Origin: a virus
Strand: one strand, 5' to 3'
IMG/VR virus record: IMGVR_UViG_3300028198_000019
Span: 1-25,750 of that record
Length of the DNA: 25,750 nt
Shown: positions 12,804 to 25,750 of the stretch, in pieces
Layout of the letters: each line of letters opens with the position of its first letter
How positions within the stretch are numbered: position 1 is the stretch's first letter
The notes under the pieces: model-generated
What the model was told of the DNA's origin: nothing
The model's input: the letters and a program-made list of their open reading frames with translations, nothing else
Database searches by the model: none
Translations under genes and position numbers: made by a program

Positions 12804-12818
12804 CACTAAGGCAATAAA

Positions 12819-12854
12819 AAAGCCCCTAAAGATTATCAAGTCTCTAGGGGCTTT
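12819..12854. terminator. Bidirectional intrinsic terminator at gene convergence
   Basis: AAAGCCCCTA (12819-12828) pairs perfectly with TAGGGGCTTT (12845-12854); AGA/TCT can extend the pairing inside the loop. On the minus strand the stem is followed by a run of T. On the plus strand the tail is TTTCCTTTG. It sits between the end of the ejection protein gene and the end of the reductase gene. Confidence 0.9.
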
Positions 12855-12869
12855 CCTTTGTACGCTTAC

Positions 12870-14858
12870 TTATTTAATTGGGCAAGCACCTCCTGCACAT
12901 TCATCTTCGTTCAACTCGTCAAAGCTCTCTGTATGAGTTAAGTCTACTGGTGAAAGTTTAGATACATAAGTATCGTATGCTTCCTTAGTCACTACCTCTT
13001 GTGGTAAGTACAAGTACCCTAAGTCCTCTGCTGACTTAGAAGGATCAGCACGATACAAGAATGATACACCTACATAGCACTCCCAGTTATCTAACAACCA
13101 ATCTACAATACCCTCTACCTCGCTAGGGTCATAGCTAATCGTTACACTTGTGTTCTGCTGTGTCCAGAACTGTTGGTACTTCTTGTAACGCTCTAGCTGT
13201 TCTAAGGCAGTCTCAGTGTTAACCTCTAAGACAGTACCATCTTCCTTAGTGATCTTGGTAAACTCCACATCGTCCCAAGCTACAGGGAAAGTACATAACA
13301 TACCTTCCACATCGTTAGGGTTAGGGAACACATTGTACCCTGCTTGGATTAGCTTAGGGATCAATGGATCGTTCTTACCAAAGTTCACATTGTTAAAGAT
13401 GTAACGACCTAGTGGCTTGTGTACACCTTCAGTAGTATCCATGATCTTACTCAGAGTACCACTAGGCTTAACACACGTTGTGTTCTTAGGACGTTGTGTA
13501 CCTAGTTCATCTGCCATAGAGTAAGTAGCGTTAACAGCTTCTAGCTGCATCTGCTTCAAGTCATACTCAGATAGGTCGTCACGTTGTGCAATACCAGTTA
13601 GACCAACACCACATAGACGTAGGAACTCATTGTTCTGATGCCATGCTTCCTGTAGGATACCGTCTCGTAGGTCTACACAAGTCTGGCGATAGTTAGCTCG
13701 ACCAGCAATGCGTAAGGCCCGTAGTAAGCCTGCTTGATCCCCTTTGAACTTGGCAATGTCTACTTCCGTTAAGTTACAGAATGACTTGTTACCTAGTAGG
13801 ATTTCTACACAAGGGTTACAACCGTACCACCAAGGGGCACGTTGTCGTGCTACCTGACCATTGATGAAGCCGGGTTCACTACCACCTGCATCTTCCATTA
13901 AGTCAAAGATATGTTGTAGTTGATCCTTGCTAGGCTTCTCCATAAAGGCTAGTGAGTTATTACTCTGTGCCCGTTGGATATTGTTTACCCACCAATCTTT
14001 CTTGGCTACTGCGAACTCTTGCCATTCCGGTTCGTCCACGTGAAATAGAGCGATTTGGGCAGACCGACGACTAGACAGAATAGTACCAAGCCAATTAACA
14101 ATATCAAGAATGTCAATGCGACTAAGCATCTGCCCAGCGCGTCTATTAAGAATCTCGGCAATAGCCACATAAGCCTTAGAGATTGCTGTATCACCCGAAC
14201 TAATCCACCCATAACCTTTTAACCTCTCACCTGCTGGACGTAACTCACTAAAGTCTAGTACTAATTCGTCTACCTTTTCCTTACCTGCTAGTAGTTTACC
14301 AATAGACTTGGCCCATGCTTCTGCACTGTCACCAATCTTAATAGTCCATACACCATCAATAATATCTTCTTCATTGTACTCTAAGCCGCCCTTCTCTGTA
14401 CGTTCAGAGTTAATGATACTAACAGTAGGGATAGGGCTAGAAAAGCCGTTGAGCGTCCCTACAACTGGAGTAAAGCCTACACCACAGCCTTGTAGTAACA
14501 ACCATAGAGTGTCCACTACATCGTAGGTTGTCTCTACCTTCAGGAAGCTACAGTTAAACTGTGAGGCTTCGCGTGTCTGTGCTACTGTTGTACCACCTAG
14601 CCATAGTGTACGGCCACTCATAGATACCTTACGTTCGTACATCAACTGTCGTAGTTCATCTAACTCTGCTTTACGGGCTTGCTTTTGCTCTGGTTTAAAC
14701 AGACCTACTTCGTCTGCTCTATCCCACAACCACGACTGGTGTTCTATAACACGATCTACTGTCTGTTCCCAAGTCTCAAACTTAGTGCCCTCATCGTTAA
14801 GTGGGCGGTTGTAGGTTCTCCGTGTAATGATCTGCGCTCTTGCTGATGGTTCGTACAT
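12870..14858 (-). CDS. nrdJ: Class II (B12-dependent) ribonucleoside-triphosphate reductase
   Basis: A 662-residue protein that should convert ribonucleoside triphosphates to deoxy forms using adenosylcobalamin, feeding phage DNA synthesis. It resembles the monomeric Lactobacillus leichmannii enzyme (739 residues). Visible features are SGRTLWLGGT (81-90), FNCSF with C103 as a likely disulfide partner, CNPCVEI with C350 as the likely thiyl-radical cysteine, SFCNLTE with C361 as the second likely disulfide partner, KPSGTLS (464-470), and a C-terminal CAGGACPIK with the C654/C659 pair that recycles the active site. No class I radical-carrier gene (nrdB) or class III activase is nearby, which fits class II. 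The ATG has CAGGAG upstream. It is the last gene of the minus-strand block, downstream of mazG. Confidence 0.93.
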   Translation of the reverse strand: MYEPSARAQIITRRTYNRPLNDEGTKFETWEQTVDRVIEHQSWLWDRADEVGLFKPEQKQARKAELDELRQLMYERKVSMSGRTLWLGGTTVAQTREASQFNCSFLKVETTYDVVDTLWLLLQGCGVGFTPVVGTLNGFSSPIPTVSIINSERTEKGGLEYNEEDIIDGVWTIKIGDSAEAWAKSIGKLLAGKEKVDELVLDFSELRPAGERLKGYGWISSGDTAISKAYVAIAEILNRRAGQMLSRIDILDIVNWLGTILSSRRSAQIALFHVDEPEWQEFAVAKKDWWVNNIQRAQSNNSLAFMEKPSKDQLQHIFDLMEDAGGSEPGFINGQVARQRAPWWYGCNPCVEILLGNKSFCNLTEVDIAKFKGDQAGLLRALRIAGRANYRQTCVDLRDGILQEAWHQNNEFLRLCGVGLTGIAQRDDLSEYDLKQMQLEAVNATYSMADELGTQRPKNTTCVKPSGTLSKIMDTTEGVHKPLGRYIFNNVNFGKNDPLIPKLIQAGYNVFPNPNDVEGMLCTFPVAWDDVEFTKITKEDGTVLEVNTETALEQLERYKKYQQFWTQQNTSVTISYDPSEVEGIVDWLLDNWECYVGVSFLYRADPSKSAEDLGYLYLPQEVVTKEAYDTYVSKLSPVDLTHTESFDELNEDECAGGACPIK

Positions 14859-14865
14859 ATTCTTA

Positions 14866-15177
14866 TTACTCCTGAATGTCTTGTTCTTTTATGAAGATAC
14901 CATCTACCATGATACCCCCGCGGTCTTTAATTTCTTCGTATGCGTGTTCCATACATTGCAATAAGTTCAACTCGTTTCTTTCTGCAATGTTAATCAAAAC
15001 TACTAGCATATCCCCAATGTCATCTATAGGTGACTCACCCTTAACAACACTAGTCTCCAATTCGTAAAGCTCCTCCTTGAGCTTGGTTACTTGTGACCTA
15101 TCATTACTGCCATCTATCAAGTTACGATCATGGTGCCACTTCTTGATTAGGTCTATTTGCTCCATCATCTTGTTCAC
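14866..15177 (-). CDS. mazG: MazG-like nucleotide pyrophosphohydrolase
   Basis: About 100 residues, the size of a single MazG domain. The KLKEELYELE helix (E35, E36, E39) and the IDDIGDMLVVL helix (D53, D56) form the EExxE...(E/D)xxD metal site of all-alpha NTP pyrophosphatases. Such enzymes hydrolyse (d)NTPs to monophosphates. In marine phages they are thought to recycle nucleotides or alter (p)ppGpp signalling, which is unproven here. The start is GTG 15177 or ATG at 15168/15165 (the initial MNKMM). It ends seven bases before the reductase start, so the two are probably co-expressed. Confidence 0.85.
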   Translation of the reverse strand: MNKMMEQIDLIKKWHHDRNLIDGSNDRSQVTKLKEELYELETSVVKGESPIDDIGDMLVVLINIAERNELNLLQCMEHAYEEIKDRGGIMVDGIFIKEQDIQE

Positions 15178-15178
15178 T

Positions 15179-15772
15179 TTACTTCTGTACCTCCAATAGT
15201 TTTTGTAAGTAGTGTAGTGCCTTTTCTAAGTCCTGCTTACCGTTCTTTGATTTATACCTAGTAACATACTTTACTACATTACCCTCTAGGTATCCTAAGT
15301 TATTAGCCACTATGTAGTCCCAAGGTTGTATGCTCTTTTCTACATAGTGACCACCACCCACTTGCTTTTGTGATGCCTTACTAGTGTCAGTCATATAGTA
15401 ACTACCTTGGTAGGTAACTTCTCCAATGGGACTTTCTTTGTTACCCATACAGCCCATAGTCCTGTTGCCAGCCCCTTGTTTTATGCTGGCACCTGCTCTT
15501 GCAAGCAGTCTTGTTTTCTTACCATGAATCAACCTGCGTTCTGGTACCATAGTTAAACCAGCATCCGCCAGCAGATGTTTCTGTGAATGGGTGGTTACAG
15601 AGTTCGTCCTAAAAATATCGTCAAGGCATTCTTTCTGAAAGAACCAGTAATCTTCAAGACCCTCTATCATACCTTTAATTTCAGTGACAATAGTATTTTT
15701 ACCCACACACATATTCCACTCATTGGGGGTTGCATCATTTAGTCTTCTCTCTGCGTCCACTAGATCTGTCAT
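15179..15772 (-). CDS. DUF3310 protein with unexplained N-terminal extension
   Basis: The reading frame encodes 197 residues. I set the start at ATG 15772 (TDLVDAERRLND), with AAGGA about 9 bases upstream; an in-frame start at 15823 lies further up with no better site. Only the last 71 residues match a known family: VGGGHYVEKSIQPWDYI, NVVKYVTRYKSKNGKQDLEKALHYLQ are typical of DUF3310, a small domain near phage nucleotide genes (SPO1, T7 relatives). DUF3310 proteins are usually about this short, and an internal ATG at 15394 with an AAGG site would give just that. The first 125 residues match nothing I recognise and are basic and Cys-poor. It could be a fusion, a nested pair, or a decayed insertion. 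Confidence 0.65.
   Translation of the reverse strand: MTDLVDAERRLNDATPNEWNMCVGKNTIVTEIKGMIEGLEDYWFFQKECLDDIFRTNSVTTHSQKHLLADAGLTMVPERRLIHGKKTRLLARAGASIKQGAGNRTMGCMGNKESPIGEVTYQGSYYMTDTSKASQKQVGGGHYVEKSIQPWDYIVANNLGYLEGNVVKYVTRYKSKNGKQDLEKALHYLQKLLEVQK
15392..15408 (-). promoter_or_regulatory. Probable internal ribosome site and start for the DUF3310 domain
   Basis: On the minus strand AAGGTAGTTACTAT precedes ATG 15394. It closely resembles the SSB gene leader (AAGGTAGTATATT before ATG 18980). The start gives MTDTSKASQKQVGGGHY, the expected beginning of a free-standing 71-residue DUF3310 protein. Confidence 0.5.
15402..15508 (-). other. Cluster of four inverted repeats inside a reading frame
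   Basis: Four dyads occur in 107 bases: 15493-15497/15504-15508 (5 bp), 15466-15472/15485-15491 (TGCCAGC/GCTGGCA, 7 bp perfect), 15429-15433/15458-15462 (GGACT/AGTCC) and the palindrome CTACCTTGGTAG at 15402-15413. The RNA could fold upstream of, and over, the internal ribosome site. No known RNA family was recognised. Confidence 0.45.
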
Positions 15773-15887
15773 CTTTTTTATCCTTTTCTTTTTTACCGAA
15801 TATCTTATCCCAGTTATCCTCAAATTTCTTTTGGTCTAGCGCAGTCCTTTGCGCCGACCCTTTACCACCATGCCACTCCTTACCCAT
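15735..15887 (-). CDS. Small basic conserved phage protein (50 residues)
   Basis: A 50-codon gene starting MGKEWHGGKGSAQR and ending in a Lys/Arg-rich tail. The EWHGGKGS...R start followed by F..NWDKIF is a pattern I recognise from many short, uncharacterised phage proteins, so this is very likely real despite its size. It overlaps the phosphoesterase gene by 8 bases and the next gene start by 38 bases; the AAGGA ribosome site of that gene lies inside it. The high positive charge suggests nucleic-acid binding, but no function is known. Confidence 0.75.
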   Translation of the reverse strand: MGKEWHGGKGSAQRTALDQKKFEDNWDKIFGKKEKDKKDDRSSGRREKTK

Positions 15888-16635
15888 ATTTCTCTCTTAG
15901 GAACTCCAAGCTAACTGGTAGTTCATCAAAGCCTCCGTCGTTAACTTCATTCAGCATCCAGATACCTTTCCAGCTTCCGTTACCTTGATGCCCCAAGTAA
16001 TCCTCATCGTGTTGGTAGAAGATGCCAGCAAATAAACCTGTTAAGCGTTTACCATCTGCTCGTTTGGCATAGGCTATGTCCCTATCTTGCACATGGCCCA
16101 TAACCGTAGACATCATTTTCTTATTAATCATAGCTCTTGCACTACCACAAGGTCTACCCATTACACCTGTAGTAAAGAAGTGGGCAAATGCTACACCCTC
16201 TACAACTACTGGCTTTAGATAATCGTGTACTTCCCAATCATCTAGGTTTAAATCCTTGTAACCGATAGTATCCTCTAAGATAGCATCGTTTTCAATAGCC
16301 CGTTCAATCCTTTGTTCGTGATTACCCATTGTGTAAATCATTCTAGGGTTCCACTGTTTCTTCTTATTCCTTTTTAAACGGTTGATCTCTGACTTAATAG
16401 GTTGTAGGAATAAGTCCATTGCAATGTTACCTGCATCTACATCGTCCTTATAACGTCTACCCTCAAAAGACTTCTTACCAACATCGTAAGAAGATAGGCT
16501 AGGCATATCCCAGAAGTCACCAATGTTTACTATCACATCTGGCTTCTTTTCTGCAATATACCTACCAGCCCAGAGTAGATGTTGCAAAGGAACATCTGGC
16601 TTTACCTGTGCGTCCGGTATTACGCATATCTTCAT
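15880..16635 (-). CDS. Calcineurin-like metallophosphoesterase
   Basis: A 251-residue protein with the metal-binding motifs of this superfamily in order: PDAQ (D8, Q10), GDFWD (39-43), GNHEQR (104-109), AHFF (H152) and MGH (H181). The first motif is usually D-x-H; here the His is Gln, which also occurs in some phage members. These enzymes hydrolyse phosphoesters in proteins, nucleotides or nucleic acids, and the phage substrate is unknown. SIO1-type phages are remembered to carry such a gene among replication genes, which fits this place. AAGGGG precedes the ATG. It overlaps the next gene by 8 bases. Confidence 0.85.
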   Translation of the reverse strand: MKICVIPDAQVKPDVPLQHLLWAGRYIAEKKPDVIVNIGDFWDMPSLSSYDVGKKSFEGRRYKDDVDAGNIAMDLFLQPIKSEINRLKRNKKKQWNPRMIYTMGNHEQRIERAIENDAILEDTIGYKDLNLDDWEVHDYLKPVVVEGVAFAHFFTTGVMGRPCGSARAMINKKMMSTVMGHVQDRDIAYAKRADGKRLTGLFAGIFYQHDEDYLGHQGNGSWKGIWMLNEVNDGGFDELPVSLEFLREKYG

Positions 16636-16649
16636 ATTGACTACCCCTT

Positions 16650-16898
16650 TTAAATATCAAACTCATCTGGTTTCTTTACTTCCTTACGTTGTACATACCG
16701 TAACCAAGTATAGTGTGAGTAGTCCACCAAACCATAAGCACCTAAGCCTACACACAACGCTAACTCCAACAAGTGTGTCTTGATACCACGTTTAAAGAAC
16801 TCCCTATCCCGTACTACATCTTCTACAACCTGCATGGTATAGCATAGTAGACCACAAGATACCCAAGCAACAACCGCCAAACTAAATACTTCACTCAT
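16650..16898 (-). CDS. Small membrane protein, unknown function
   Basis: An 82-residue protein. The start at ATG 16898 is preferred over one nine codons upstream because GGAG lies seven bases before it; it then overlaps the zinc-ribbon gene by 8 bases. Two hydrophobic segments are visible, near residues 5-22 (FSLAVVAWVSCGLLCYTM) and 43-58 (LELALCVGLGAYGLVDY). Charged loops lie between and after them. It is probably an inner-membrane protein made early in infection. Superinfection exclusion or membrane remodelling are possibilities, not supported by any motif. Confidence 0.6.
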   Translation of the reverse strand: MSEVFSLAVVAWVSCGLLCYTMQVVEDVVRDREFFKRGIKTHLLELALCVGLGAYGLVDYSHYTWLRYVQRKEVKKPDEFDI

Positions 16899-17202
16899 AA
16901 TAATCTCCACTCTGTTTAAAATCATTTATAATATCACTGTACGCATCTAACTCTGCCCTTAAAACATCTTGCTCATCCTCCTCGAAGTCTAAGTCTGGCA
17001 TATCAAATTCTTCGTCTGTATGCTCTGTTATGAAATGTGCGGGTAACATACCCCGTTCTGATAGATCACTTACAACACCTAACATCTCTGTCACAGACAT
17101 TACGCAAGCAAACCTACAAGTACCACATATTCGTGAGTTACCTACTATCTTATATTCGGGTTCCTTAGTCCCGCAGTTGTAACAATATTTCATATCACTC
17201 AT
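16891..17202 (-). CDS. Zinc-ribbon protein with acidic C-terminus
   Basis: A 103-residue protein starting at ATG 17202, which overlaps the endonuclease stop (ATGA); a GGGAG site is 11 bases upstream. The N-terminus carries two CxxC knuckles, C7/C10 and C26/C29, plus C33, as in a zinc ribbon. The rest is acidic (DMPDLDFEEDEQD near residues 67-79) and helical. Zinc ribbons usually contact nucleic acid or protein, and the acidic tail could mimic DNA or bind a basic partner. The gene lies between endonuclease I and a small membrane protein. No specific family is recognised. Confidence 0.65.
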   Translation of the reverse strand: MSDMKYCYNCGTKEPEYKIVGNSRICGTCRFACVMSVTEMLGVVSDLSERGMLPAHFITEHTDEEFDMPDLDFEEDEQDVLRAELDAYSDIINDFKQSGDYYE

Positions 17203-17618
17203 AAGTTTTTTAACTCCCGTATCCATTCCTTCGGGAACTCTTTAAAAGCGTATGGTATCCCGTACTTCTTACACCAGTCAGAATACTTCTGCTTCTTCTT
17301 AGAAGTTACCCAGTTGTCCCTTTGAAACAACATTCGTATATCTCTGTCCGGGTGTTCTTCCTTAATAGCCTTCATCTTAGTTCTGTCTGGTGAAGTGAAG
17401 CGGCCCTTGGCCTCTACAATAACAGCACCATCACCGAATATAAAGTCTGGGTTGTAAGTCCTTGTTAGCTTAACAGACTTGCTACCACAATCACTACAGA
17501 CCCCCCGCTTCTTTAGGTTGAACTCTAGCTTAATAGTTTCATACTCAAAAGGTACTCCACACTCGTCTAGTTGTTGTGCCAGTCTACGTTCTAAACCACT
17601 CCTGTACTTGTTACCCAT
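17199..17618 (-). CDS. Endonuclease I (T7 gp3-like Holliday junction resolvase)
   Basis: A 139-residue protein closely following T7 endonuclease I. It has RSGLE near residues 6-10 (E10), FEYE near 24-27, YNPDFIF (D58), VIVEAKGRF (E69, K71), DRTKMKAIKEEHPDRDIRMLF (78-98), and the C-terminal YSDWCKKYGIPYAFKEFPKEWI. E10, D58, E69 and K71 correspond to the four catalytic residues of the T7 enzyme. It cuts branched DNA and helps break down host DNA and resolve concatemers before packaging. A CSDCG pair (C41, C44) sits in the loop just before the active site, where the T7 enzyme has none. It overlaps the exonuclease gene by 8 bases. Confidence 0.9.
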   Translation of the reverse strand: MGNKYRSGLERRLAQQLDECGVPFEYETIKLEFNLKKRGVCSDCGSKSVKLTRTYNPDFIFGDGAVIVEAKGRFTSPDRTKMKAIKEEHPDRDIRMLFQRDNWVTSKKKQKYSDWCKKYGIPYAFKEFPKEWIRELKNL

Positions 17619-18321
17619 AGTTAAATCCTAATGGCATTTGTCTATCACGTTGTAGCATCCATAGTAGTTGGCTATTCTCTACCGCTCTTTGGAAGCCTTC
17701 ACCGTACCCTAGTTGATCGTTGTATAGGTCTACTATCATCTCCTCCCAATCCTCCACTGGGGTTTCATCTAGTAGTTTGTCAGCCTTCTTCGGCCCTATA
17801 CCCTTTAAACCAATTATGTTATCTACCTTGTCTCCGGTTAGCATTTGGTGGTGGAAGAATCTAAACCCCTCATCCTCTGTAACCTCCTGCCACTCCTCCT
17901 TTACATAGTTATAGTGCTTTCCCGGAACCATTAACAAGTCTTTATCTATCGTTGCAATGGCAGTATCTTCGGTTTGTGATAACGCTAGTGCATCATCTGC
18001 TTCCATACCATCTATAACCTTTGCACTATAACGCTCTGTAATGTAGTCCCTGATTAACTGGTAGTGTACTGGCTTATCAGTACCAGACCTGTTTGCTTTG
18101 TAATCCTCTCTAACCTTAAACCTGAAGTTATCCCTTCCAGTTAGGAACACTGTGTACTCATCGCACTCTGTGTCCTCTATGATCCTATCCATGTACAGTT
18201 TGCAGCTATGCTTGGCAAAAGATACTGGGTCAGCTTTGACCAACCCAGTCTCCTTGTCCTTTTTCTGACAGGCAAAGCCTATTCTGTACACTATGGGATC
18301 ACCATCTATCAGTAATCTCAT
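17611..18321 (-). CDS. 5'-3' exonuclease (T7 gp6-like, FEN family)
   Basis: A 236-residue protein. The start is ATG 18321, preceded by a perfect AAGGAGG at 18334-18328; an in-frame TTG two codons earlier overlaps that region and is unlikely. Metal-binding acids of the FEN/PIN fold are visible: D6 and D8 in LLIDGDP, MEADDAL (E107, D109, D110), TIDKDLL (D126, D128) and TGDKVDNIIGLKGIG (D164, D167 with the helix-hairpin DNA-binding loop at 171-176). It should remove RNA primers and degrade host DNA. The ribosome site overlaps the SSB stop codon, so translation is probably coupled. Confidence 0.9.
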   Translation of the reverse strand: MRLLIDGDPIVYRIGFACQKKDKETGLVKADPVSFAKHSCKLYMDRIIEDTECDEYTVFLTGRDNFRFKVREDYKANRSGTDKPVHYQLIRDYITERYSAKVIDGMEADDALALSQTEDTAIATIDKDLLMVPGKHYNYVKEEWQEVTEDEGFRFFHHQMLTGDKVDNIIGLKGIGPKKADKLLDETPVEDWEEMIVDLYNDQLGYGEGFQRAVENSQLLWMLQRDRQMPLGFNYG

Positions 18322-18332
18322 AGCCAACCTCC

Positions 18333-18980
18333 TTAGAAGGGAACTTCATCATCAAAGTTATCGGCTGGTACTGGTCTAGCTGGTTGTGCTGGTGCTGTTG
18401 CCACACCTTCATCAATGCGTTTATCAAACACATGACGGGCCAAACCAAACAGTGCCTTAGTCGCTGGGTTGTCTAAGTCATCTGCATCACCTACACAAGC
18501 ATCACTAATTCTCATGGCAGAAACACCGTCCTTGTACTTAGCAGGGATTGGTGTCACTGACCCGATGTTGTCATACTTAGCACTTGGGTCAGCCTTACTT
18601 GTACCATGTACTACGTTAACACTACATGGCTCGCTAATAACAGAATCCCAATCAGCTACTTGACCTTCTTTTGCACCAGAGTCAAACACTTTATAGTATT
18701 CTAGCTCCTTACCCTTTTCGTTTAATGTATGAAAGATATTGATAGGTCTTGTCCACATTAGTCGTGGCTGTTCGTTACCATCAATTACCACTGTTGAATC
18801 TACTAGCTCAATGCCTAGTGAGATTTGCTGGCAAGGTGGTTTCTCCTCACCCCTAAACTCTCTGGCTTGTAGCCCCAAGTCTCCTACATAGGCTAGGCGA
18901 CCTTCATATTCACCTGCTTCTAAGTTCTCATACTCGGCGCGGTTACCAGTGTTTTGTTCCTGACCTCGACGTTTTAACAT
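18333..18980 (-). CDS. Single-stranded DNA-binding protein (gp2.5-like)
   Basis: A 215-residue protein. It has an N-terminal beta-rich core (GEYEGRLAYVGDLGLQ, QISLGIELVDSTVV, RLMWTRPINIF) consistent with an OB fold. A Pro/Ala-rich linker near 193-207 leads to a strongly acidic end DNFDDEVPF. The final acidic tip with terminal Phe is the partner-binding signature of T7 gp2.5 and bacterial SSB, used to contact polymerase and helicase. It lies between polymerase and exonuclease, has its own promoter (19021-19049) and a GAAGG ribosome site. A separate promoter suits a protein needed in large amounts. Confidence 0.85.
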   Translation of the reverse strand: MLKRRGQEQNTGNRAEYENLEAGEYEGRLAYVGDLGLQAREFRGEEKPPCQQISLGIELVDSTVVIDGNEQPRLMWTRPINIFHTLNEKGKELEYYKVFDSGAKEGQVADWDSVISEPCSVNVVHGTSKADPSAKYDNIGSVTPIPAKYKDGVSAMRISDACVGDADDLDNPATKALFGLARHVFDKRIDEGVATAPAQPARPVPADNFDDEVPF

Positions 18981-19020
18981 AATATACTACCTTCTCTTTT
19001 TTGTGTGATTGTTTTTGTGT

Positions 19021-19049
19021 ACTGTACCAGACTTGTGTCTAGTTGTCAA
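19021..19049 (-). promoter_or_regulatory. Sigma70-like promoter for the SSB gene
   Basis: On the minus strand a perfect TTGACA (19049-19044), a 17-base spacer and TACAGT (19026-19021), with TGG before the -10 giving an extended -10. The -35 overlaps the polymerase stop codon. The spacer contains an imperfect dyad, CTAGAC/GTCTGG around ACAA (19042-19027), which could be an operator. Confidence 0.8.
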
Positions 19050-20884
19050 TGAATTTCTGAATAATTTTTACCAAATTGTACGTCACAATCCAGATCTCTG
19101 TTAAGCCCAAGATAATTATTCACCTTGTTTACACTATCTTTTAAGAGTTTAGTGCAACCCTCTCTGTTACCCTCCTTAATGTCTATGATTATCTCATCAT
19201 GGAACTGTGCTGTCAACTGTTTTCTTTTGTTTAATACAAAACCTACCCACATATCGAAACAGAATGTACCTGTGCCTTGGTTTAGTGTAGAGAATATATC
19301 CTTTTCGTTCCGTAAAGAGTAGTAGAGTTTAGATACTGGGTTATATAGCCACAGTCTACCCTCTACAGATTTTGTGGTAGCGTCCTTAGCTATCTGCTTA
19401 ACAGCCCAGTTACGTTTCCAGTATGCCTTGTGTACTTTACCTGCCTCCTTTTCACTAATGTTTAATTGTTTAGATAGTGTGGCTACTCCAGCACCATAAG
19501 TACAAGCATAGTTGCCACCTTTGTAAATGTGTCGTGTGTTTGTTACATCATCAGGTTGATCTCCGTTTTTATAATCATTTACTTGTTGTTGTGTTAAGGC
19601 CCCTGCTGATAATGCAAGGTCTAAGTGTGGATCGAAGTCATCGCTCATCATTTGTTTGACATACTCTGGGTCATATTCCCACATATAATGTTGCTTAGTC
19701 CTATCCTCTAAGCTGCACATATCCGATCCACATAACTCTTTACTGCCTGTTGTTGTCAGTAGTCCTCGTATATCCTTACCGTATGGTTTGCGTAGTGATG
19801 GTAGGTTAACACAGACTGCGTGTTTAAAACGTAGTGTGTTGGTTAAGCCCTGTACTGCTGCTATAACATGGCCGCTATCATCTACACTCTTTAAGAACCC
19901 TTTTAACAATCCTATACGGTGCTTGATTACTGCCATATCATCTAACAATAATACTTCTGGGTGTATGTCACCTAGTCTAACTACACTCTTACACAAGTCT
20001 CCTGACTTTGTTTTTATCTGTGGTACTTTACGTTGGTCTGGTTTAAAGTCGAACGTCTCTGGCTCCCAGCCTAAACCATCTAACCAATCTTTGATCTGGC
20101 TTACACTCGATGGGTTAGGTGCTACCATATCAACTAATTCTTTTACCTCCTCATCATGTTCAAAAGGTAATCCCATGTCTTTGGTTAGCTTATCCCAACG
20201 TAAACCAGTGGCAGATAGTGTGCCGTCTTTCTTGTATGGCTTAGTTGGTCGTTGTCTTTTAGCATACTTAGGTACCAATGGCATCAATCCTGCTAACTGC
20301 TCTACTGAGTGTGCGTACTTATCCTCTAATTGTTCTAGCAGTGTTGAGGTATTAGCTACATCTAACTTCCACTTACTAGATTCCTGAAGTCTTGCACAAT
20401 TCATCTTAAACATAAGGTATCTGATTAGTGCTTGTGGTTTACCCTCGTACACTTTGTCTAACATATCAGATTGTACGTCCCACAACAGCTTGTTAATCTT
20501 TACATCTTCCTCACAACGGTTAACATATTCCTCTATAGGTAGATTAGTCCAGTTTGTAATCGTTGGCTTGGCTACACCTAGATCCTCACCCCAACCTTCT
20601 AAACCATGTCGGCCCCTTTCTGGGTACAAGTACCAAGACAGTGCCAAAGTATCTACTATCTGTGCCTTGATCTCAATACCCAGTAGCCGTTCTAATGTTG
20701 GTGCATCGTACCGTATGAAGTTGTGGCCTATAATCCTATCGTCTTTAGTCAAGTTTAAAAGGAATACTCTTATAGCTTGTGAGCTAGTATAGCTGGCTAT
20801 TGTATCCTCAATCTGTACTGACATACAGTGTAGCTTAGTGGCCTCAATTCCATCTGTCTCTATATCAATTATGTAATCTGCCAT
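19046..20884 (-). CDS. DNA polymerase, family A (T7 gp5-like) with 3'-5' exonuclease
   Basis: A 612-residue replicative polymerase, shorter than T7 gp5 (704). The proofreading domain is intact: Exo I DIETDG (D7, E9), Exo II GHNFIRYD (D60) and Exo III CEEDV (D127). Polymerase motifs are A, SDMCSLEDR (D388), B, RHIYKGGNYACTYG (R451, K455, Y459), and C, FHDEI (H562, D563). Y459 is at the position of E. coli F762, where tyrosine, as in T7, removes discrimination against dideoxynucleotides. It should copy the phage genome with the primase-helicase, whose gene overlaps it by 20 bases. GGAG precedes the start. Confidence 0.95.
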   Translation of the reverse strand: MADYIIDIETDGIEATKLHCMSVQIEDTIASYTSSQAIRVFLLNLTKDDRIIGHNFIRYDAPTLERLLGIEIKAQIVDTLALSWYLYPERGRHGLEGWGEDLGVAKPTITNWTNLPIEEYVNRCEEDVKINKLLWDVQSDMLDKVYEGKPQALIRYLMFKMNCARLQESSKWKLDVANTSTLLEQLEDKYAHSVEQLAGLMPLVPKYAKRQRPTKPYKKDGTLSATGLRWDKLTKDMGLPFEHDEEVKELVDMVAPNPSSVSQIKDWLDGLGWEPETFDFKPDQRKVPQIKTKSGDLCKSVVRLGDIHPEVLLLDDMAVIKHRIGLLKGFLKSVDDSGHVIAAVQGLTNTLRFKHAVCVNLPSLRKPYGKDIRGLLTTTGSKELCGSDMCSLEDRTKQHYMWEYDPEYVKQMMSDDFDPHLDLALSAGALTQQQVNDYKNGDQPDDVTNTRHIYKGGNYACTYGAGVATLSKQLNISEKEAGKVHKAYWKRNWAVKQIAKDATTKSVEGRLWLYNPVSKLYYSLRNEKDIFSTLNQGTGTFCFDMWVGFVLNKRKQLTAQFHDEIIIDIKEGNREGCTKLLKDSVNKVNNYLGLNRDLDCDVQFGKNYSEIH

Positions 20885-22538
20885 AACTCGGCTCCAAATA
20901 GGTTACTGTTGGCTCATCAAAATAAACATCACAAGTATAACTCTGTCCGAAGTCCCTGTCAAACAACATATAAAACTCTGACATATTCTTACGTTCGATA
21001 GGGCACTCGTCTGTACGATCACGACTGATACCATGTCCGTAGTGTGACCATTTCTCTAAGGCCCTACTACCTGTGAACTCAGAACTATAAACCCTTGCCC
21101 CTGCCTCGTGTGGTTTAGATGCCTTTGGCTTGGGGTTAACGTGTGAGTAACAGAATATAGTTATCGGATACACGTTCACCAGATCAGCCATGTCAGTCAT
21201 AATCTCGTTTAGCTTATCATTGGCTTCACTACTACTATAACGGCTCACCAGCGCAGTCAGAGGATCGAGAACGAATATGTTAATGCCATCGAGTAAGTGC
21301 ATCTCCTCTATTGCGATACGAATATCATGCCAATCTCTACTTGCCCCCCGATCATAAAACCTTACGTTACCTTGTAGGCTTTCTAATGTACTACGCAATT
21401 CACCATCTGTATAGTTTGTATCTGGTCTAGTAAAGTCTTTCTTTGCTTCCTTACTAGCCAGCTTTTTAGCTGTCTTAACAGGGCTATTCTCTAGGTCAAA
21501 CATACCTACCTTGACCTGCTCTTTGTACAATAGGTGGTGTACTAGCTGGTGTTGGTGGTCAGTCTTACCAATCTTAGGTGCTGCCCCTACAATATGGATA
21601 GTGCTAGGACGTATACCGAAGCAAGCCTTAGTGACTGTAGGCCAAGGAAAGGAAAGCCCCATCACTGGCTTCTCCATTGCCTTATCTATCAGGTCTAATA
21701 CGTCTACCACTTCACCCTGTCGCTCGATGTTTGAATCCCATACACAGTTCTGGTACAGCTCACGCTCTCTACCGGCTAACACCATCTCGTTAGCATCTTT
21801 TAGTTCGTACTTGGCTACCTTACACATAGGAAAAGATTGTAACACTTCCTTAGTGGCCTTACGTCCTGCATCATCCATGTCGAAGCACAGAATAATCTCA
21901 CCGTATCGGCTAAGGAACTCTCTATTAGCCATCATATCCTTAACGGCACTGGTTGCACCCCTTGTTACTGACACTACACTGGGCAGATACTGTTTGTACC
22001 GTTCAGGGGTGTTACTAGTGATAGCTTGGTACAAACTCATTGCATCCAAGCGACCTTCAGTAATGAATAACTTCTTACCTCCATTCTTTTTGGCTAGTGG
22101 TGTACCCCATAATTCAACTTCACCTTTACGATCACCTACTGTACGAAACTTTTTATCTTCAACGTGCTTAACTTCCCACCCCGTCACCTTACCTTGCTTA
22201 GTGTCAGGGTAATAGTGTTCTTCGATGGTCTTACCATCTACTTGGCTTAGTGCTACCCGCACCCCATACAATTCACAAGTCTGCTTATTGATGCCGCGAT
22301 CAGGTATTGATTGTATTGGTAGTTCGTTTACGTTCTTGTTTGTCATTACCTGCTCCGGCTCTTGATAAGTTCTTGTTTTTGTTTTATCCATTGGGAAGTA
22401 TGTAGAGCAAGCAAAGCAATAGCTATCCGTTTGCCCACCCTCATACCCGTACACTTGATTTGCATCGGAGCTACCACATTCATCACATGAAGTCTTGTAC
22501 AGGGTAGCCCCTTTCGGTCTGTCGTTTTTGTACTTCAT
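20865..22538 (-). CDS. DNA primase-helicase (T7 gp4-like)
   Basis: A 557-residue two-part enzyme like T7 gp4 (566). The N-terminal zinc-binding domain has C18/C21 and C41/C44. The primase TOPRIM core follows: LFITEGRLDAMSL (E161) and LCFDMDDAGRKA (D220, D222). The helicase has Walker A GAAPKIGKT (318-326), Walker B FVLDPLTAL (D425) and the FCYSHVNP motif (H466). It unwinds DNA as a hexamer and makes primers for the polymerase encoded directly after it. The intact zinc domain means this is the full-length priming form. The start is two bases after the stop of the preceding small gene. Confidence 0.95.
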   Translation of the reverse strand: MKYKNDRPKGATLYKTSCDECGSSDANQVYGYEGGQTDSYCFACSTYFPMDKTKTRTYQEPEQVMTNKNVNELPIQSIPDRGINKQTCELYGVRVALSQVDGKTIEEHYYPDTKQGKVTGWEVKHVEDKKFRTVGDRKGEVELWGTPLAKKNGGKKLFITEGRLDAMSLYQAITSNTPERYKQYLPSVVSVTRGATSAVKDMMANREFLSRYGEIILCFDMDDAGRKATKEVLQSFPMCKVAKYELKDANEMVLAGRERELYQNCVWDSNIERQGEVVDVLDLIDKAMEKPVMGLSFPWPTVTKACFGIRPSTIHIVGAAPKIGKTDHQHQLVHHLLYKEQVKVGMFDLENSPVKTAKKLASKEAKKDFTRPDTNYTDGELRSTLESLQGNVRFYDRGASRDWHDIRIAIEEMHLLDGINIFVLDPLTALVSRYSSSEANDKLNEIMTDMADLVNVYPITIFCYSHVNPKPKASKPHEAGARVYSSEFTGSRALEKWSHYGHGISRDRTDECPIERKNMSEFYMLFDRDFGQSYTCDVYFDEPTVTYLEPSYGRLHN

Positions 22539-22540
22539 AA

Positions 22541-22831
22541 TTACTCACTCGATAACTGAGGCCAGTCATTGCTGGCATCAAATATATACTCGGGCCACAA
22601 GTCATCTGCTGCGTCAATGGCCTTGTCTCCTCTATCCCATGCCTCCTCGTTGACAATCCACTCTTTGTTGCCCTCTACTGTAACGTAGCGTCCACCATCA
22701 TACAACTGTTTCATGGCGGCATATAACTCTTGAGCAACCACCTGCGCCCTAGCCTGTAGTTTTTCCTTGTAAAGTTCCCACTGTTCATCTTGTGCTTTTT
22801 GTCTACAACAACACTTTGTACATTCACTCAT
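22541..22831 (-). CDS. Small cysteine-start protein, unknown function
   Basis: A 96-residue protein with four Cys at the N-terminus (C4, C7, C8, C9 in SECTKCCCRQ), then a helical Gln/Glu/Ala-rich section (residues 12-42) and an acidic, Trp-rich end (EEAWDRGDKAIDAADDLWPEY). There is no membrane segment. A ribosome site AGAGGGG lies upstream and the stop is two bases before the primase-helicase start, so the two are probably translated together. The Cys cluster could bind metal. No family is recognised; a replication accessory role is a guess from position. Confidence 0.6.
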   Translation of the reverse strand: MSECTKCCCRQKAQDEQWELYKEKLQARAQVVAQELYAAMKQLYDGGRYVTVEGNKEWIVNEEAWDRGDKAIDAADDLWPEYIFDASNDWPQLSSE

Positions 22832-22845
22832 AATAACTCACCCCT

Positions 22846-23055
22846 CTAATGCAATGTAGTTGTTTCTTTTTCTTCACCTTCTATCAGGGAAAACCCGAAC
22901 TCATCCTCTAAGTAGCTAGACAATTCTCTGCAAGCTATGGCCGCTGCTATGGCAGATGGCCCACGCTCCTCTAACAACTCAAGTATAGCATCACACAAAC
23001 CCTCAGCCTCGTCCATCATTTGTTCGTATTCTAAGTCTGTCATTTTGTTAGTCAC
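22846..23055 (-). CDS. Small acidic protein, unknown function
   Basis: At most 69 residues, mostly helical and acidic, with LEYEQMMDEAEGLCDAILELLEERG and SSYLEDEFGFSLIEGEE. The start is either GTG 23055, overlapping the thyX stop by 8 bases with GGAGGG nine bases upstream, or ATG 23043 four codons in. No motif, signal or membrane segment is seen. The gene lies between thyX and a Cys-start protein in the same apparent transcript. Function unknown. Confidence 0.55.
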   Translation of the reverse strand: MTNKMTDLEYEQMMDEAEGLCDAILELLEERGPSAIAAAIACRELSSYLEDEFGFSLIEGEEKETTTLH

Positions 23056-23692
23056 TTGTTAAAGCCCTCCAGCTAATAGGGAATAGATCACCAATAATTT
23101 TACCAACACCTTCAGCTAATTCTTGAATCTCTTTTTGTGCGTGAGGATCAGTACGTTGATTATAAAACCTAGCAAAGCTTGCTACGTTACCAGTCCATAC
23201 CCAGCTAACCATTGCGCCTTGTGGTAACAGAAACCTAGCTTGTTCTGGGCACATGCCCTCATCAATAGCGTAGGTGTAATCTGCTAGGCACGATTTGTAA
23301 TGGCGTTTAAATATATTGTGCCACCTCACTTGCTCTTTCATCTCACCAGTACTACCTTGCTTTGCACTACCTACTGGCTTACCCCTAAAGGTAGAGCCTA
23401 GATAGAACTCAGGGCCAGAAGATATATAACGCCTACTCTCTTCATTCTCAACAAAACCACTCTTGTGCTTGAAGCATTGAGTACGAATAGGTACTGGTGC
23501 TTTCATACGCAGCTGAATGGACGTATGAGCAAAGGGTGTCCAGTGCTGGTGGCTTGCTAAGTAATTGATGAGGCGCTCGTCCTCTGGCCCCTTCTCTAAC
23601 TGTTTCTTTTCAAAGCTAACACGGGCAGCGTTGACTACTGATAGGTCGCTACCCATATGATCCAAATATTCTACCTTCATTCTCGAAAACAT
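23048..23692 (-). CDS. thyX: Flavin-dependent thymidylate synthase
   Basis: A 214-residue enzyme that makes dTMP from dUMP using FAD and methylenetetrahydrofolate. Family features are VVNAARVSFEK (19-29), HWTPFAH (50-56), a phage-type signature IRTQCFKHKSG...VENEESRRY (69-89) replacing the common RHRxxS form, ARFLLPQGA (152-160) and FYNQRTDPHAQKEI near 176-189 for substrate binding. The phage signature keeps NExSRRY. It acts with the reductase and MazG to raise dTTP for DNA copying. AGGAG and AAGGG precede the ATG. A 102-base gap upstream carries a repeated TTATGTCG element, so the gene is probably regulated. Confidence 0.92.
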   Translation of the reverse strand: MFSRMKVEYLDHMGSDLSVVNAARVSFEKKQLEKGPEDERLINYLASHQHWTPFAHTSIQLRMKAPVPIRTQCFKHKSGFVENEESRRYISSGPEFYLGSTFRGKPVGSAKQGSTGEMKEQVRWHNIFKRHYKSCLADYTYAIDEGMCPEQARFLLPQGAMVSWVWTGNVASFARFYNQRTDPHAQKEIQELAEGVGKIIGDLFPISWRALTSD

Positions 23693-23721
23693 TTACCCTT
23701 CACTCCTATTATTGATATTCT

Positions 23722-23770
23722 TTATGTCGATTTGGGGAAGTGTTTCCGACATAAGATATTATTATGTCGA
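23722..23770 (-). promoter_or_regulatory. Three-copy TTATGTCG operator-like element upstream of thyX
   Basis: TTATGTCG occurs at 23722-23729 and 23762-23769, with its exact complement CGACATAA at 23747-23754 between them. The last two form an 8-bp perfect inverted repeat around a 7-base spacer. On the minus strand two copies extend into a similar TCGACATAA-(T/AG)AATATC direct repeat. The gap holds no gene, and I see no strong -35/-10 pair. Confidence 0.6.
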
Positions 23771-23794
23771 AAGCCAGCAGTAACTAGTACACAA

Positions 23795-24016
23795 TCAAAC
23801 ATGGTAACAATTCTCATTCTCGTCTATGAATATACAACCACCGATAATATGTCCACTGTCTACACAACACTCACATATTTCCTCAAAGTGCATCTCGTCA
23901 ACGGTTAATTGTTCATCACAAACGATACAGGTACGAATAGGATTCTGTTCTAATAACTCCTGTTCTCTTTCGTAATCGTTTAGGTCTTGTTCTACTCTAC
24001 ATTTATTGTTATTCAT
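23795..24016 (-). CDS. Small cysteine-rich (zinc-binding?) early protein
   Basis: A 73-residue protein. The start is ATG 24016, with AAGGAG ten bases upstream; a longer reading from 24073 would include the promoter and is rejected. The N-terminus is polar and acidic (NDYEREQELLEQN). The second half has C30/C33, C48/C50/C51, C61 and C70, with CIVCDE and ICECC as likely metal-binding knuckles, and ends in a short beta-like strand (GGCIFIDENENCYHV). It has its own promoter (24045-24073). A DNA- or protein-binding role is plausible, but no family is recognised. Confidence 0.6.
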   Translation of the reverse strand: MNNNKCRVEQDLNDYEREQELLEQNPIRTCIVCDEQLTVDEMHFEEICECCVDSGHIIGGCIFIDENENCYHV

Positions 24017-24044
24017 ATACTTATAACTCCTTAAAAGATTATTT

Positions 24045-24073
24045 ATTGTATCACGTTTCAACCCTATTAGCAA
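24045..24073 (-). promoter_or_regulatory. Sigma70-like promoter with extended -10 for a small early gene
   Basis: On the minus strand TTGCTA (24073-24068), a 17-base spacer and TACAAT (24050-24045), preceded by TGA (extended -10). The -35 overlaps the stop codon of the upstream 67-residue gene. The expected transcript start is near 24038, 22 bases before the ATG at 24016. Confidence 0.65.
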
Positions 24074-24270
24074 TACCCTGTAATCATTTTATATTCTAAA
24101 TCTTTTATCTCGTTAAGAATATAATCATAATCCTTTTGCGTCCTAGCCGCATACAGTAACGCCTCAAGTTGTTTATTGTATTCGTTATACCCTATGCTTC
24201 CATCTCGCAAACCTTCCCTTGCTTTATACATTTCACTTGCAATACTTATCTTTACTCTTGGAAATTCCAT
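24067..24270 (-). CDS. Small helical early protein, unknown function
   Basis: A 67-residue, mostly helical protein with AAGGGG upstream of the ATG. The middle, LRDGSIGYNEYNKQLEALL (residues 21-39), is like a SHOCT-type helical hairpin, in which a short helix, a Gly turn and a (T/S)xxEY start of a second helix are typical. The neighbouring 62-residue gene has a related stretch. No membrane segment is seen. Its own gene ends in the -35 box of the next promoter. Function unknown. Confidence 0.55.
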   Translation of the reverse strand: MEFPRVKISIASEMYKAREGLRDGSIGYNEYNKQLEALLYAARTQKDYDYILNEIKDLEYKMITGYC

Positions 24271-24297
24271 GTGGTTTACCCCTTGTGTTATGCTGTT

Positions 24298-24328
24298 AAT
24301 GGCCCTCAGACGCTCCCTAAAGGCCGTT
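24298..24328 (-). other. Strong hairpin in an intergenic gap
   Basis: A 12-base-pair stem with wobbles (24298-24309 with 24317-24328) closes a 7-base loop, in the 79-base gap between two small genes. There is no T run on either side, so it does not look like a normal terminator. On the minus-strand RNA the loop reads GGAGCGT. It may be an RNA processing or stability element. Confidence 0.55.
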
Positions 24329-24349
24329 CTACTACAAACCTAAGTTACC

Positions 24350-24538
24350 CTACTGGATAGATACTAAAACCCTCTCTAACTCGCTTAGAATTGCCTCCGT
24401 TTTTTGGTTTTGTTCTTCGCATTCAAACAAGTGATAGTTTAAAACGTCTATATATTCCTCGTGAGTATACATTCCAACCTGATATAACTTTAGTTCTGCG
24501 TCCAGCTCTGGGTAATCTAACATAGATACGTTGTTCAT
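24350..24538 (-). CDS. Small acidic helical early protein, unknown function
   Basis: A 62-residue protein starting at ATG 24538, with GGGAG nine bases upstream; an in-frame longer start at 24577 would run into the neighbouring 29-codon gene. It is helical and acidic. The LKLYQVGMYTHEEYIDVLNYHL stretch (residues 17-38) resembles a SHOCT-type helical hairpin, and residues 42-59 form an amphipathic helix. It looks distantly like the next small gene (24067-24270). The function is unknown; such small early phage proteins often bind host proteins. Confidence 0.55.
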   Translation of the reverse strand: MNNVSMLDYPELDAELKLYQVGMYTHEEYIDVLNYHLFECEEQNQKTEAILSELERVLVSIQ

Positions 24539-24563
24539 AATATATAACTCCCATTTGATCTTA

Positions 24564-24653
24564 TTAAAACTCACCAACTTGGCACAAGATATAGATTATG
24601 GCAGAAAGTACTACCAGTAATATATCCTTTTGGTTAGCCTTGTTTATTTTCAT
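24564..24653 (-). CDS. 29-residue single-pass membrane peptide
   Basis: A tiny gene starting ATG 24653 with GGGGAG about 9 bases upstream. The product begins MKINKANQKD and continues with one hydrophobic segment (ILLVVLSAIIYILCQVG), ending GEF, so it should insert in the inner membrane with a basic N-terminus. It overlaps the end of the preceding gene by 20 bases and ends 25 bases before the next start. The ribosome site and clean topology support it as real, but it is too short to assign to a family. Confidence 0.55.
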   Translation of the reverse strand: MKINKANQKDILLVVLSAIIYILCQVGEF

Positions 24654-24906
24654 TAGCTATATCTCCCCTTGCTTTTTCTTCCCAGTAATCTAATGACTCG
24701 TCGTCTGCATACACTACGCCCAACGCTCGTTGGCTTTCCCTAAGCTGCTCTACGTCCATCAGTAACATGCTGGGATTGTAATCACTATACCCCAAACAGT
24801 TCACAAGTCTGTCAGCAGCGGCTAACGTGTCATGTGTATACAAAGCAACGTCAACGCCGAATTTCTTAACAAGCTCTAACTGTTCTTTGTTTAGTTGTGC
24901 TTCCAT
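24634..24906 (-). CDS. Small acidic protein, unknown function
   Basis: A 90-residue protein with AAAGAGG about eight bases before the ATG. It is helical and acidic (LNKEQLELVKKFGVDVALY, DVEQLRESQRALG, DDESLDYWEEKARGD) with no membrane segment or metal motif. It lies directly downstream of the gp88-like gene and overlaps the 29-residue membrane peptide gene by 20 bases. No family is recognised. Confidence 0.55.
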   Translation of the reverse strand: MEAQLNKEQLELVKKFGVDVALYTHDTLAAADRLVNCLGYSDYNPSMLLMDVEQLRESQRALGVVYADDESLDYWEEKARGDIANENKQG

Positions 24907-24936
24907 TGTAATGGCCTCTTTAGTGTATTTGATACG

Positions 24937-25671
24937 TTAGTGTAACTTATAGCTCACGTGTTTGACATCTGGATTCCAACAAGCACGGCAATCACCGCAC
25001 TGGCCCTCGTTTAAGTATGCCCCGCATTCAGTACCACGCCCGCCCATTACATGCACGCCGCTGGTATTGCCTTGCCACTTGTTGGTTTTTTGGTCAACTA
25101 TGTCATCGCTGACACGCACCACGGCATTGCTATGCTTAGTTAAACCTTTAGCCATTCGCGCCTCCCGCGTAGGGATCCAATGGCTTGTTGCTGGTGTGTT
25201 ATATATCGCCTCACTGACTAAATCGCGATACTCATCACTGTATAAATCACCCGCCGAATGCCACCTAAAAAACGCCTCACCATTCAGGGCGATAACAAAC
25301 GCCTCAATCCATAACTGGCGTATTGACCAATTGTTAGCCGCTAAGTCTGCAACATTCCAACGTCTTTGTTTAGCTTGTATGGCTGGTTTCATGGCATCGT
25401 GGCCTTTTGTGGCATAACATCCGGAACAAACAGTTCCTTTAACTTGTGCTAGTTTGTCGCCTCGTGGACACGTTAGCCGCGCTGGTATGGCAAAAGTATA
25501 CGCTGGCATCTTGCTATTCTTTGATAAGCCAATAAAAGCCCGTGCGGTTTTCTTATTCCTAATGCCATCAATAAAGGATAGTGCATCCGCTTTAATATTC
25601 TTTGTCGCGTTATCAAACAGGCCGCGCAATGTTTCGATGTTGTTGGTTGTTTCGCTTGTGGTTATTAGCAT
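24937..25671 (-). CDS. gp88-like cysteine-rich phage protein
   Basis: A 244-residue protein resembling the mycobacteriophage gene product 88 family, whose function is unknown. Family-like segments are FIGLSKNSKMPAYTFAIPA (46-64), CPRGDKL...GTVCSGCYATKG (C68, C82, C85), FFRWHSAGDLYSDEY (134-148), TPATSHWIPTREARM (159-173) and a Cys-rich end TECGAYLNEGQCGDCRACWNP (C216, C225, C228, C231). Seven cysteines in a 1+2 and 1+3 layout suggest zinc or iron-sulfur binding, which is inference. The ATG has AAAGAGG upstream. It is the first gene of the early minus-strand block in this window. Confidence 0.75.
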   Translation of the reverse strand: MLITTSETTNNIETLRGLFDNATKNIKADALSFIDGIRNKKTARAFIGLSKNSKMPAYTFAIPARLTCPRGDKLAQVKGTVCSGCYATKGHDAMKPAIQAKQRRWNVADLAANNWSIRQLWIEAFVIALNGEAFFRWHSAGDLYSDEYRDLVSEAIYNTPATSHWIPTREARMAKGLTKHSNAVVRVSDDIVDQKTNKWQGNTSGVHVMGGRGTECGAYLNEGQCGDCRACWNPDVKHVSYKLH

Positions 25672-25750
25672 TTTTGAATACCTCTTTGTTTTGTTTTGTA
25701 TCTTTTAAAACTGTTGGAGGATTAAACCAGTTCCACCAGCAGCGGTTTTA
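25672..25750 (-). other. Leader and window edge
   Basis: These 79 bases upstream of the gp88-like gene hold its ribosome site (AAAGAGG). On the minus strand two frames are open from the edge for a few codons (ending near 25705 and 25724), so the end of another gene may enter here; which frame is real cannot be decided. No convincing promoter is visible. Confidence 0.4.

Follow-up and report, generated by a model that had tools for sequence, protein, structure and literature searches.

The stretch of DNA analyzed here (the window) is a 25,750-base virus record with two convergent arms. Within the limits of the record, its replication arm is headed by a GP88-family gene encoding 244 aa (positions 24937 to 25671, minus strand), which matches Pfam PF17338 with an E value of 5.6e-22 and gp01 of phage CRP-4 with an E value of 1.2e-33. 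This gene also has a subthreshold match to DUF7227. Beside it on the same strand lie five tiny open reading frames (ORFs), here named genes E (90 aa, 24634 to 24906), D (29 aa, 24564 to 24653), C (62 aa, 24350 to 24538), B (67 aa, 24067 to 24270), and A (73 aa, 23795 to 24016), with the 5' part of D overlapping the end of E. They are followed by thyX (23048 to 23692, minus strand; Pfam Thy1, E value of 3.8e-39). A sequence-only reading of the window had described a cluster of five ORFs of 73, 67, 62, 29, and 90 codons between thyX and a GP88-like gene; the coordinates and lengths are correct, and both flanking genes are identified by their Pfam matches. The count of five holds for the interval between GP88 and thyX, but it covers a subset of the tiny genes present, since a 69-aa gene (22846 to 23055, minus strand) and a 96-aa gene (p96; 22541 to 22831, minus strand) lie between thyX and the primase-helicase gene (20865 to 22538, minus strand; recognized by tblastn to annotated primase/helicases). 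The primase-helicase gene marks the end of what we call the slot.

All five starts of genes A to E are preceded by a Shine-Dalgarno (SD)-like site, scored with a motif list of our own, compared with 7 of 260 antisense ATG controls (6 of 117 in the late arm and 1 of 143 in the early arm). Of 17 window starts scored with the same list, 6 lack an SD-like site (primase, polymerase, and four genes beyond them, each either larger or located downstream), so the absence of a site is weakly informative; its presence at 5 of 5 starts is still far above the control value. The longer forms of A (92 aa) and C (75 aa) that begin at TTG have no SD-like site, as judged by eye. Gene C differs from its copy in a sister contig, described below, at 12 of 189 bases, with 8 synonymous and 4 nonsynonymous changes (pS of 0.223 and pN of 0.026), which is a coding signature. 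The same comparison gives no such signature for A (0 synonymous and 4 nonsynonymous changes), for B (0 and 0), or for codons 3 to 83 of E (3 and 3). Rfam and tRNA searches gave no match. The five ORFs are probably real phage genes.

The sister contig, IMG/VR 3300037838_000059, is 99.5% identical to the window. Of the 10,945 bases that align, 54 differ, and these mismatches are far from evenly spread: 24 fall within the 1036 bases of genes A to E (binomial probability of 2e-11), 15 within the 291 bases of p96, and 15 within the 9618 bases elsewhere. Gene B is identical in the two contigs, and the polymerase gene has 0 differences in 1839 bases. The product of gene E is 96% identical over 82 residues to that of the sister, whose copy has a different end. 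This is due to a 73-base segment adjoining gene C (24581 to 24653, placed from the blastn pieces with a one-base ambiguity at its ends) that is absent in the sister; the indel removes gene D and leaves E with an end fused to the final codons of D. The sharp patches of divergence suggest exchange with a diverged relative by recombination, while weaker constraint may account for them as well, two genomes being compared. Genes A to E are probably a recombining, individually dispensable accessory segment. In p96 (22541 to 22831), the 15 differing bases comprise 6 synonymous and 9 nonsynonymous changes, and the flanking genes are nearly unchanged.

At the meeting point of the two arms is a hairpin (12819 to 12854) with 14-nt arms that are 93% complementary; it has a z score of -4.64, reached by 0 of 200 shuffles of positions 12800 to 12872, and is a candidate bidirectional terminator. 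Passages of a report on cobaviruses describe two opposite arms with a bidirectional terminator (PMC6775973), and the window has this Cobavirinae-type arrangement. A sigma-70 scan of positions 12801 to 25750 found 27 sites, which is at chance (28.8 expected). The gap between C and B contains a hairpin (24301 to 24325) that lacks a U tract and that 4 of 200 shuffles equal. The motif TTATGTCGA occurs in 4 copies in the window, compared with 4.4 expected. In the gap between A and thyX (23722 to 23772), there is an 11-pair hairpin with TTATGTCG-type arms plus a third copy of the motif, the number of copies in the window being at chance.

The gene order of the replication arm, thyX, small genes, primase, polymerase, exonuclease, endonuclease, MazG, and ribonucleotide reductase (RNR), is also of the Cobavirinae type. 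The nearest phage in gene order is the cultured cobavirus CRP-4 (Veravirus; Zobellviridae, Cobavirinae), which has the same succession of GP88, tiny genes, thyX, tiny genes, primase, polymerase, MazG, and RNR. Its GP88-thyX gap holds 8 genes, 7 of them tiny, and its thyX-primase gap holds 4 genes. In ICBM1, ICBM3, and P12053L, small genes stand in runs on either side of thyX and before primase, but tblastn did not find GP88 in these three phages or in the Siovirus records, so GP88 does not serve as a boundary in cobaviruses at large. In CRP-2 and CRP-603, GP88 is followed by many tiny genes in a looser order, with thyX after integrase, HNH, and primase genes; SIO1 is more sparsely annotated. 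The order was not seen in the stretches viewed of CRP-125, CRP-227, HTVC027P, and three records with similar RNR, so it belongs to cobaviruses and their kin rather than to every phage with similar enzymes. The sequence-only reading had proposed a search for conserved gene order in metagenomic phages; such order exists in CRP-4, but it is looser in some relatives and was not seen in the stretches viewed of others. RNR of the window is 58 to 60% identical to that of roseophages, and its best match, at 68.7%, is an unclassified record. A first assignment to the HMO-2011 type was dropped, since both the order of the genes and the annotated relatives favor cobaviruses.

Related loci in viral contigs have the same character. 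With the primase-helicase, 73 loci were retrieved, from which 29 with less than 900 bases upstream were dropped and the sister was omitted, leaving 43. In these loci, many of which are near-identical, 253 of the 332 proteins called before primase by our own ORF caller, which favors SD sites, are 100 aa or shorter, and they fall into 141 families, 86 of which are singletons. GP88-family genes lie upstream in three of the loci, L007 and L061 (the two loci checked by Pfam) and L026 (by tblastn). The slot is already known from related phages, including cultured ones, while its contents in the window are new. The literature searched, in the parts available, held no account of a function for these tiny genes, which is not proof that none exists.

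In the searches that we ran, genes A to E have no secure relative beyond the one sister contig, as the sequence-only reading had expected in calling them poorly conserved. A tblastn search in "phages" gave no match for A, C, or E and a best E value of 0.8 for B. Scans of viral contigs with E, B, C, A, and an alignment of C, which reach close relatives, retrieved the sister alone. When all five were compared by tblastn with the 73 primase loci and with 82 loci fetched with GP88 and thyX (80 of 204 thyX matches kept), the best values outside the sister were 0.13 for B and 0.048 for gene E. In genome contigs, gene E had no match, and the primase matched one locus. Compared with 101 slot proteins taken from six related phages, none of the five gave an E value below 0.03, which sets the contents of this slot apart from theirs. 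Searches of Pfam, PHROGs, NCBIfam, and PADLOC gave no match of A to E to known inhibitor or defense-related families; PADLOC, which holds models of defense, not of counterdefense, gave no match at all. Searches of solved structures by sequence gave no match for A or C. The earlier reading had named lack of conservation as evidence against itself, and this lack is found for the contents of the slot but not for the slot.

The product of gene A is the Cys-rich one noted earlier, with 8 Cys in 73 residues. Four of these (C30, C33, C48, and C51) form two CxxC pairs in a CxxC-X14-CxxC knuckle that is kept in both sisters. With this knuckle, A may resemble lambda NinF (PF05810). Like A, NinF is a small protein with a CxxC plus CxHCC or CxCC cysteines and similar flanks, but the Cys spacing differs and A has an extra C-terminal part. 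The alignment has a score of 55, which is reached by 5 and 7 of 5000 plain shuffles and by 60 and 38 of 5000 shuffles with the cysteines fixed. The Pfam NinF model gives A an E value of 0.36 and 11.2 bits, compared with a cutoff of 27.5. Lambda NinF itself is not known to have an assigned function. Other small CxxC proteins were rejected as relatives of A (37 of 5000 shuffles for one in ICBM1, or 98 with the cysteines fixed, and 434 and 2046 for those in loci L071 and L050), and a profile built from three CxxC proteins of cobavirus type fails to retrieve A. The best Pfam match of A, YjcQ, has an E value of 0.1 and was judged to be due to chance.

A SHOCT-like helical hairpin had been proposed for two of the products, B and C. 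The model of C (mean pLDDT of 85.3), built on an alignment that includes a 56-aa protein of related locus L004, predicts helices at residues 10 to 20, 26 to 39, and 45 to 61. Passages of the SHOCT paper describe two helices with a conserved Gly and Glu, and the predicted structure of C would have a comparable hairpin of two helices, in which Gly22 precedes and Glu28 follows the turn; both residues are kept in the L004 protein. Unlike SHOCT, C has a third helix and no other domain in front, and SHOCT (PF09851) was not matched in Pfam by B or C at an E value of 10. The likeness between B and C is also weak: direct paralogy was rejected, as 559 of 5000 shuffles score equally well. Fold searches with C gave best E values of 0.17 in BFVD and 1.0 in the PDB, none reaching 0.001. 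Matches of C in PHROGs (0.018 and 0.029) were judged to be due to chance, as were 64 weak structure-sequence matches of B, mostly to influenza hemagglutinin HA2, with E values of 0.044 and above.

The 56-aa protein (L004:4054-4224), encoded about 2 kb before primase, may be a syntenic homologue of C, although the indication is weak. Among 338 proteins, phmmer gives it an E value of 0.0045, and its score is equaled by 5 of 5000 shuffles, or by 3 of 200 when the choice among 379 proteins is allowed for. Proteins of CRP-2 (9142 to 9306; E value of 0.031, 9 of 5000 shuffles) and P12053L (5224 to 5586; E value of 0.044, 35 of 5000) score nearly as well, so the L004 match carries less weight. B matches the L004 protein with 21 of 5000 shuffles, this target having been selected through C. 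In the best-of-379 test, the numbers of shuffled queries (of 200) that do as well are 3 for C, 22 for B, 38 for A, 97 for E, and 168 for D, so over five queries even the C match is no more than suggestive. Profiles of related slots run against the window gave best E values of 1.3e-4 for C and 0.001 for B, before correction for 55 profiles.

Gene D encodes the membrane peptide that had been noted, a probable one by sequence: it has a single hydrophobic stretch, presumably one helix, with a 17-residue Kyte-Doolittle mean of 2.59. Small hydrophobic peptides occur in 21 of the 43 related loci, by a crude cutoff; some of these loci are near-identical to one another. None of the 43 slots holds a relative of D. 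Gene E gave no convincing match in the searches run. Its NCBIfam match (E value of 0.035, 12 bits against a cutoff of 1273) was judged to be due to chance, and the solved structures that it matches are two designed proteins, with E values of 0.013 and 0.015 over 31 residues. A fold search against BFVD gave a best E value of 1.3 for a model built on one sequence, for which the five models disagree (mean pLDDT of 74 to 43) and which is therefore given no weight.

Taken together, these results point to the cluster being an accessory segment, at the head end of the replication arm in a cobavirus-type podovirus, that occupies a fixed slot while recombination swaps its contents; we assign this reading a probability of about 0.65. 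The slot runs from GP88 through tiny genes, thyX, and further tiny genes to primase-helicase. An early transcript along the arm would probably carry the tiny genes, each translated from its own SD site; a position at the start of this arm would fit early expression. The products, a four-Cys knuckle protein, small helical proteins, and a membrane peptide, would most likely bind and tune host or phage machinery, each gene being useful on some hosts and individually dispensable. Dispensability has a precedent in takeover genes of phage SPO1, where mutations in seven of them leave a burst size that is not lowered (PMC6873191). Of this picture, the genes with their order, the slot in common with cultured phages, the uneven divergence, and a sister lacking D are observed, and early timing, recombination as the source of the patches, the accessory role, binding, and any host target are inferred. 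At published rates of about 0.3 per gene, expression in the host would quite probably show at least one of the five to inhibit growth, which makes host takeover a fair prior. Such inhibition on overexpression does not equal a role in infection, and it is possible, but on balance doubtful, that any given gene encodes a true takeover or counterdefense factor.

The five genes had been put forward as a pool of host-takeover candidates, a reasonable idea but one that is not particular to these five. That they are a dedicated module, most of whose members would inhibit host enzymes or defenses early in infection as in phage SPO1, seems to us unlikely. Small size, head-end position, and poor conservation are consistent with it, and there are precedents in the passages available of three reports: 4 of 13 early ORFans of LUZ24 are antibacterial (PMC4635203), eight inhibitory products come from the 26-gene SPO1 module, the number assayed not being stated in those passages (PMC6873191), and the 53-aa membrane protein Gp11 was chosen from 20 ORFs of PhiNM1 (PMC11237401). 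The SPO1 module, as described there, is like the slot in being a run of small genes near the genome end or arm start. In contrast to SPO1, for which expression and effects are known, there are 5 to 7 candidate genes here rather than 26. No product matches a known inhibitor or defense-related family in the databases searched, and nothing separates A to E from the other tiny genes of the slot; they are ordinary for this phage group. Gene D, moreover, is dispensable to the sister. A further reading, which we hold to be a long shot, makes C, the L004 protein, and perhaps B members of one new protein family of these podoviruses, small, helical, and expressed early; the slot would retain them because they block a host enzyme or defense, with turnover affecting the genes around them.

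It is likewise improbable that the genes are helpers of phage replication and nucleotide metabolism that serve the neighboring enzymes, for example, with A binding DNA through a zinc knuckle or having a regulatory role, in the manner of proteins from the lambda nin region. The position beside thyX and primase, the paired CxxC motifs of A, its resemblance to NinF against plain shuffles, and an annotated helix-turn-helix protein in the same small-gene run of ICBM1 are in keeping with this, but the Pfam value for NinF and the shuffles with fixed cysteines weaken the resemblance, and genes that assist core enzymes should accompany them from phage to phage, which A to E do not. Least probable of all, in our estimate, is that the cluster is partly or largely decayed or neutral sequence, with some ORFs, D above all, not encoding functional proteins. 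D is short, overlaps E, and is missing from the sister, the changes in A are all nonsynonymous, and the tail of E differs between the sisters; on the other side are the SD-like sites of all five, the synonymous excess in C, and the small hydrophobic peptides in about half of the related loci, subject to the cutoff and redundancy noted above.

The slot between GP88, or the arm start, and primase is a defined and comparable unit in cobavirus-type phages, and it offers a route by which candidate genes for host interaction could be collected from many marine phages. Priority in testing would go to genes with a relative in another phage, as may be the case for C, or to recurrent types such as the membrane peptides.

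Some features of related loci are recorded here in their own right. The GP88-family gene of L061 has a weak match to DUF5131. At the position of the 214-aa ThyX of the window, L004:4903-5826 encodes a ThyX-like protein of 307 aa, in which Thy1 is matched in two separate stretches. L081:1-2500, from the same sample number as the sister, has the end of an RNR gene much like that of the window, followed by a 65-aa ORF, and then carries a 65% identical ThyX and genes of the other module, which suggests module shuffling. In L078:4270-4584, tandem coding-like repeats with VTPYVLHR units lie between terminase and a 73% identical GP88.
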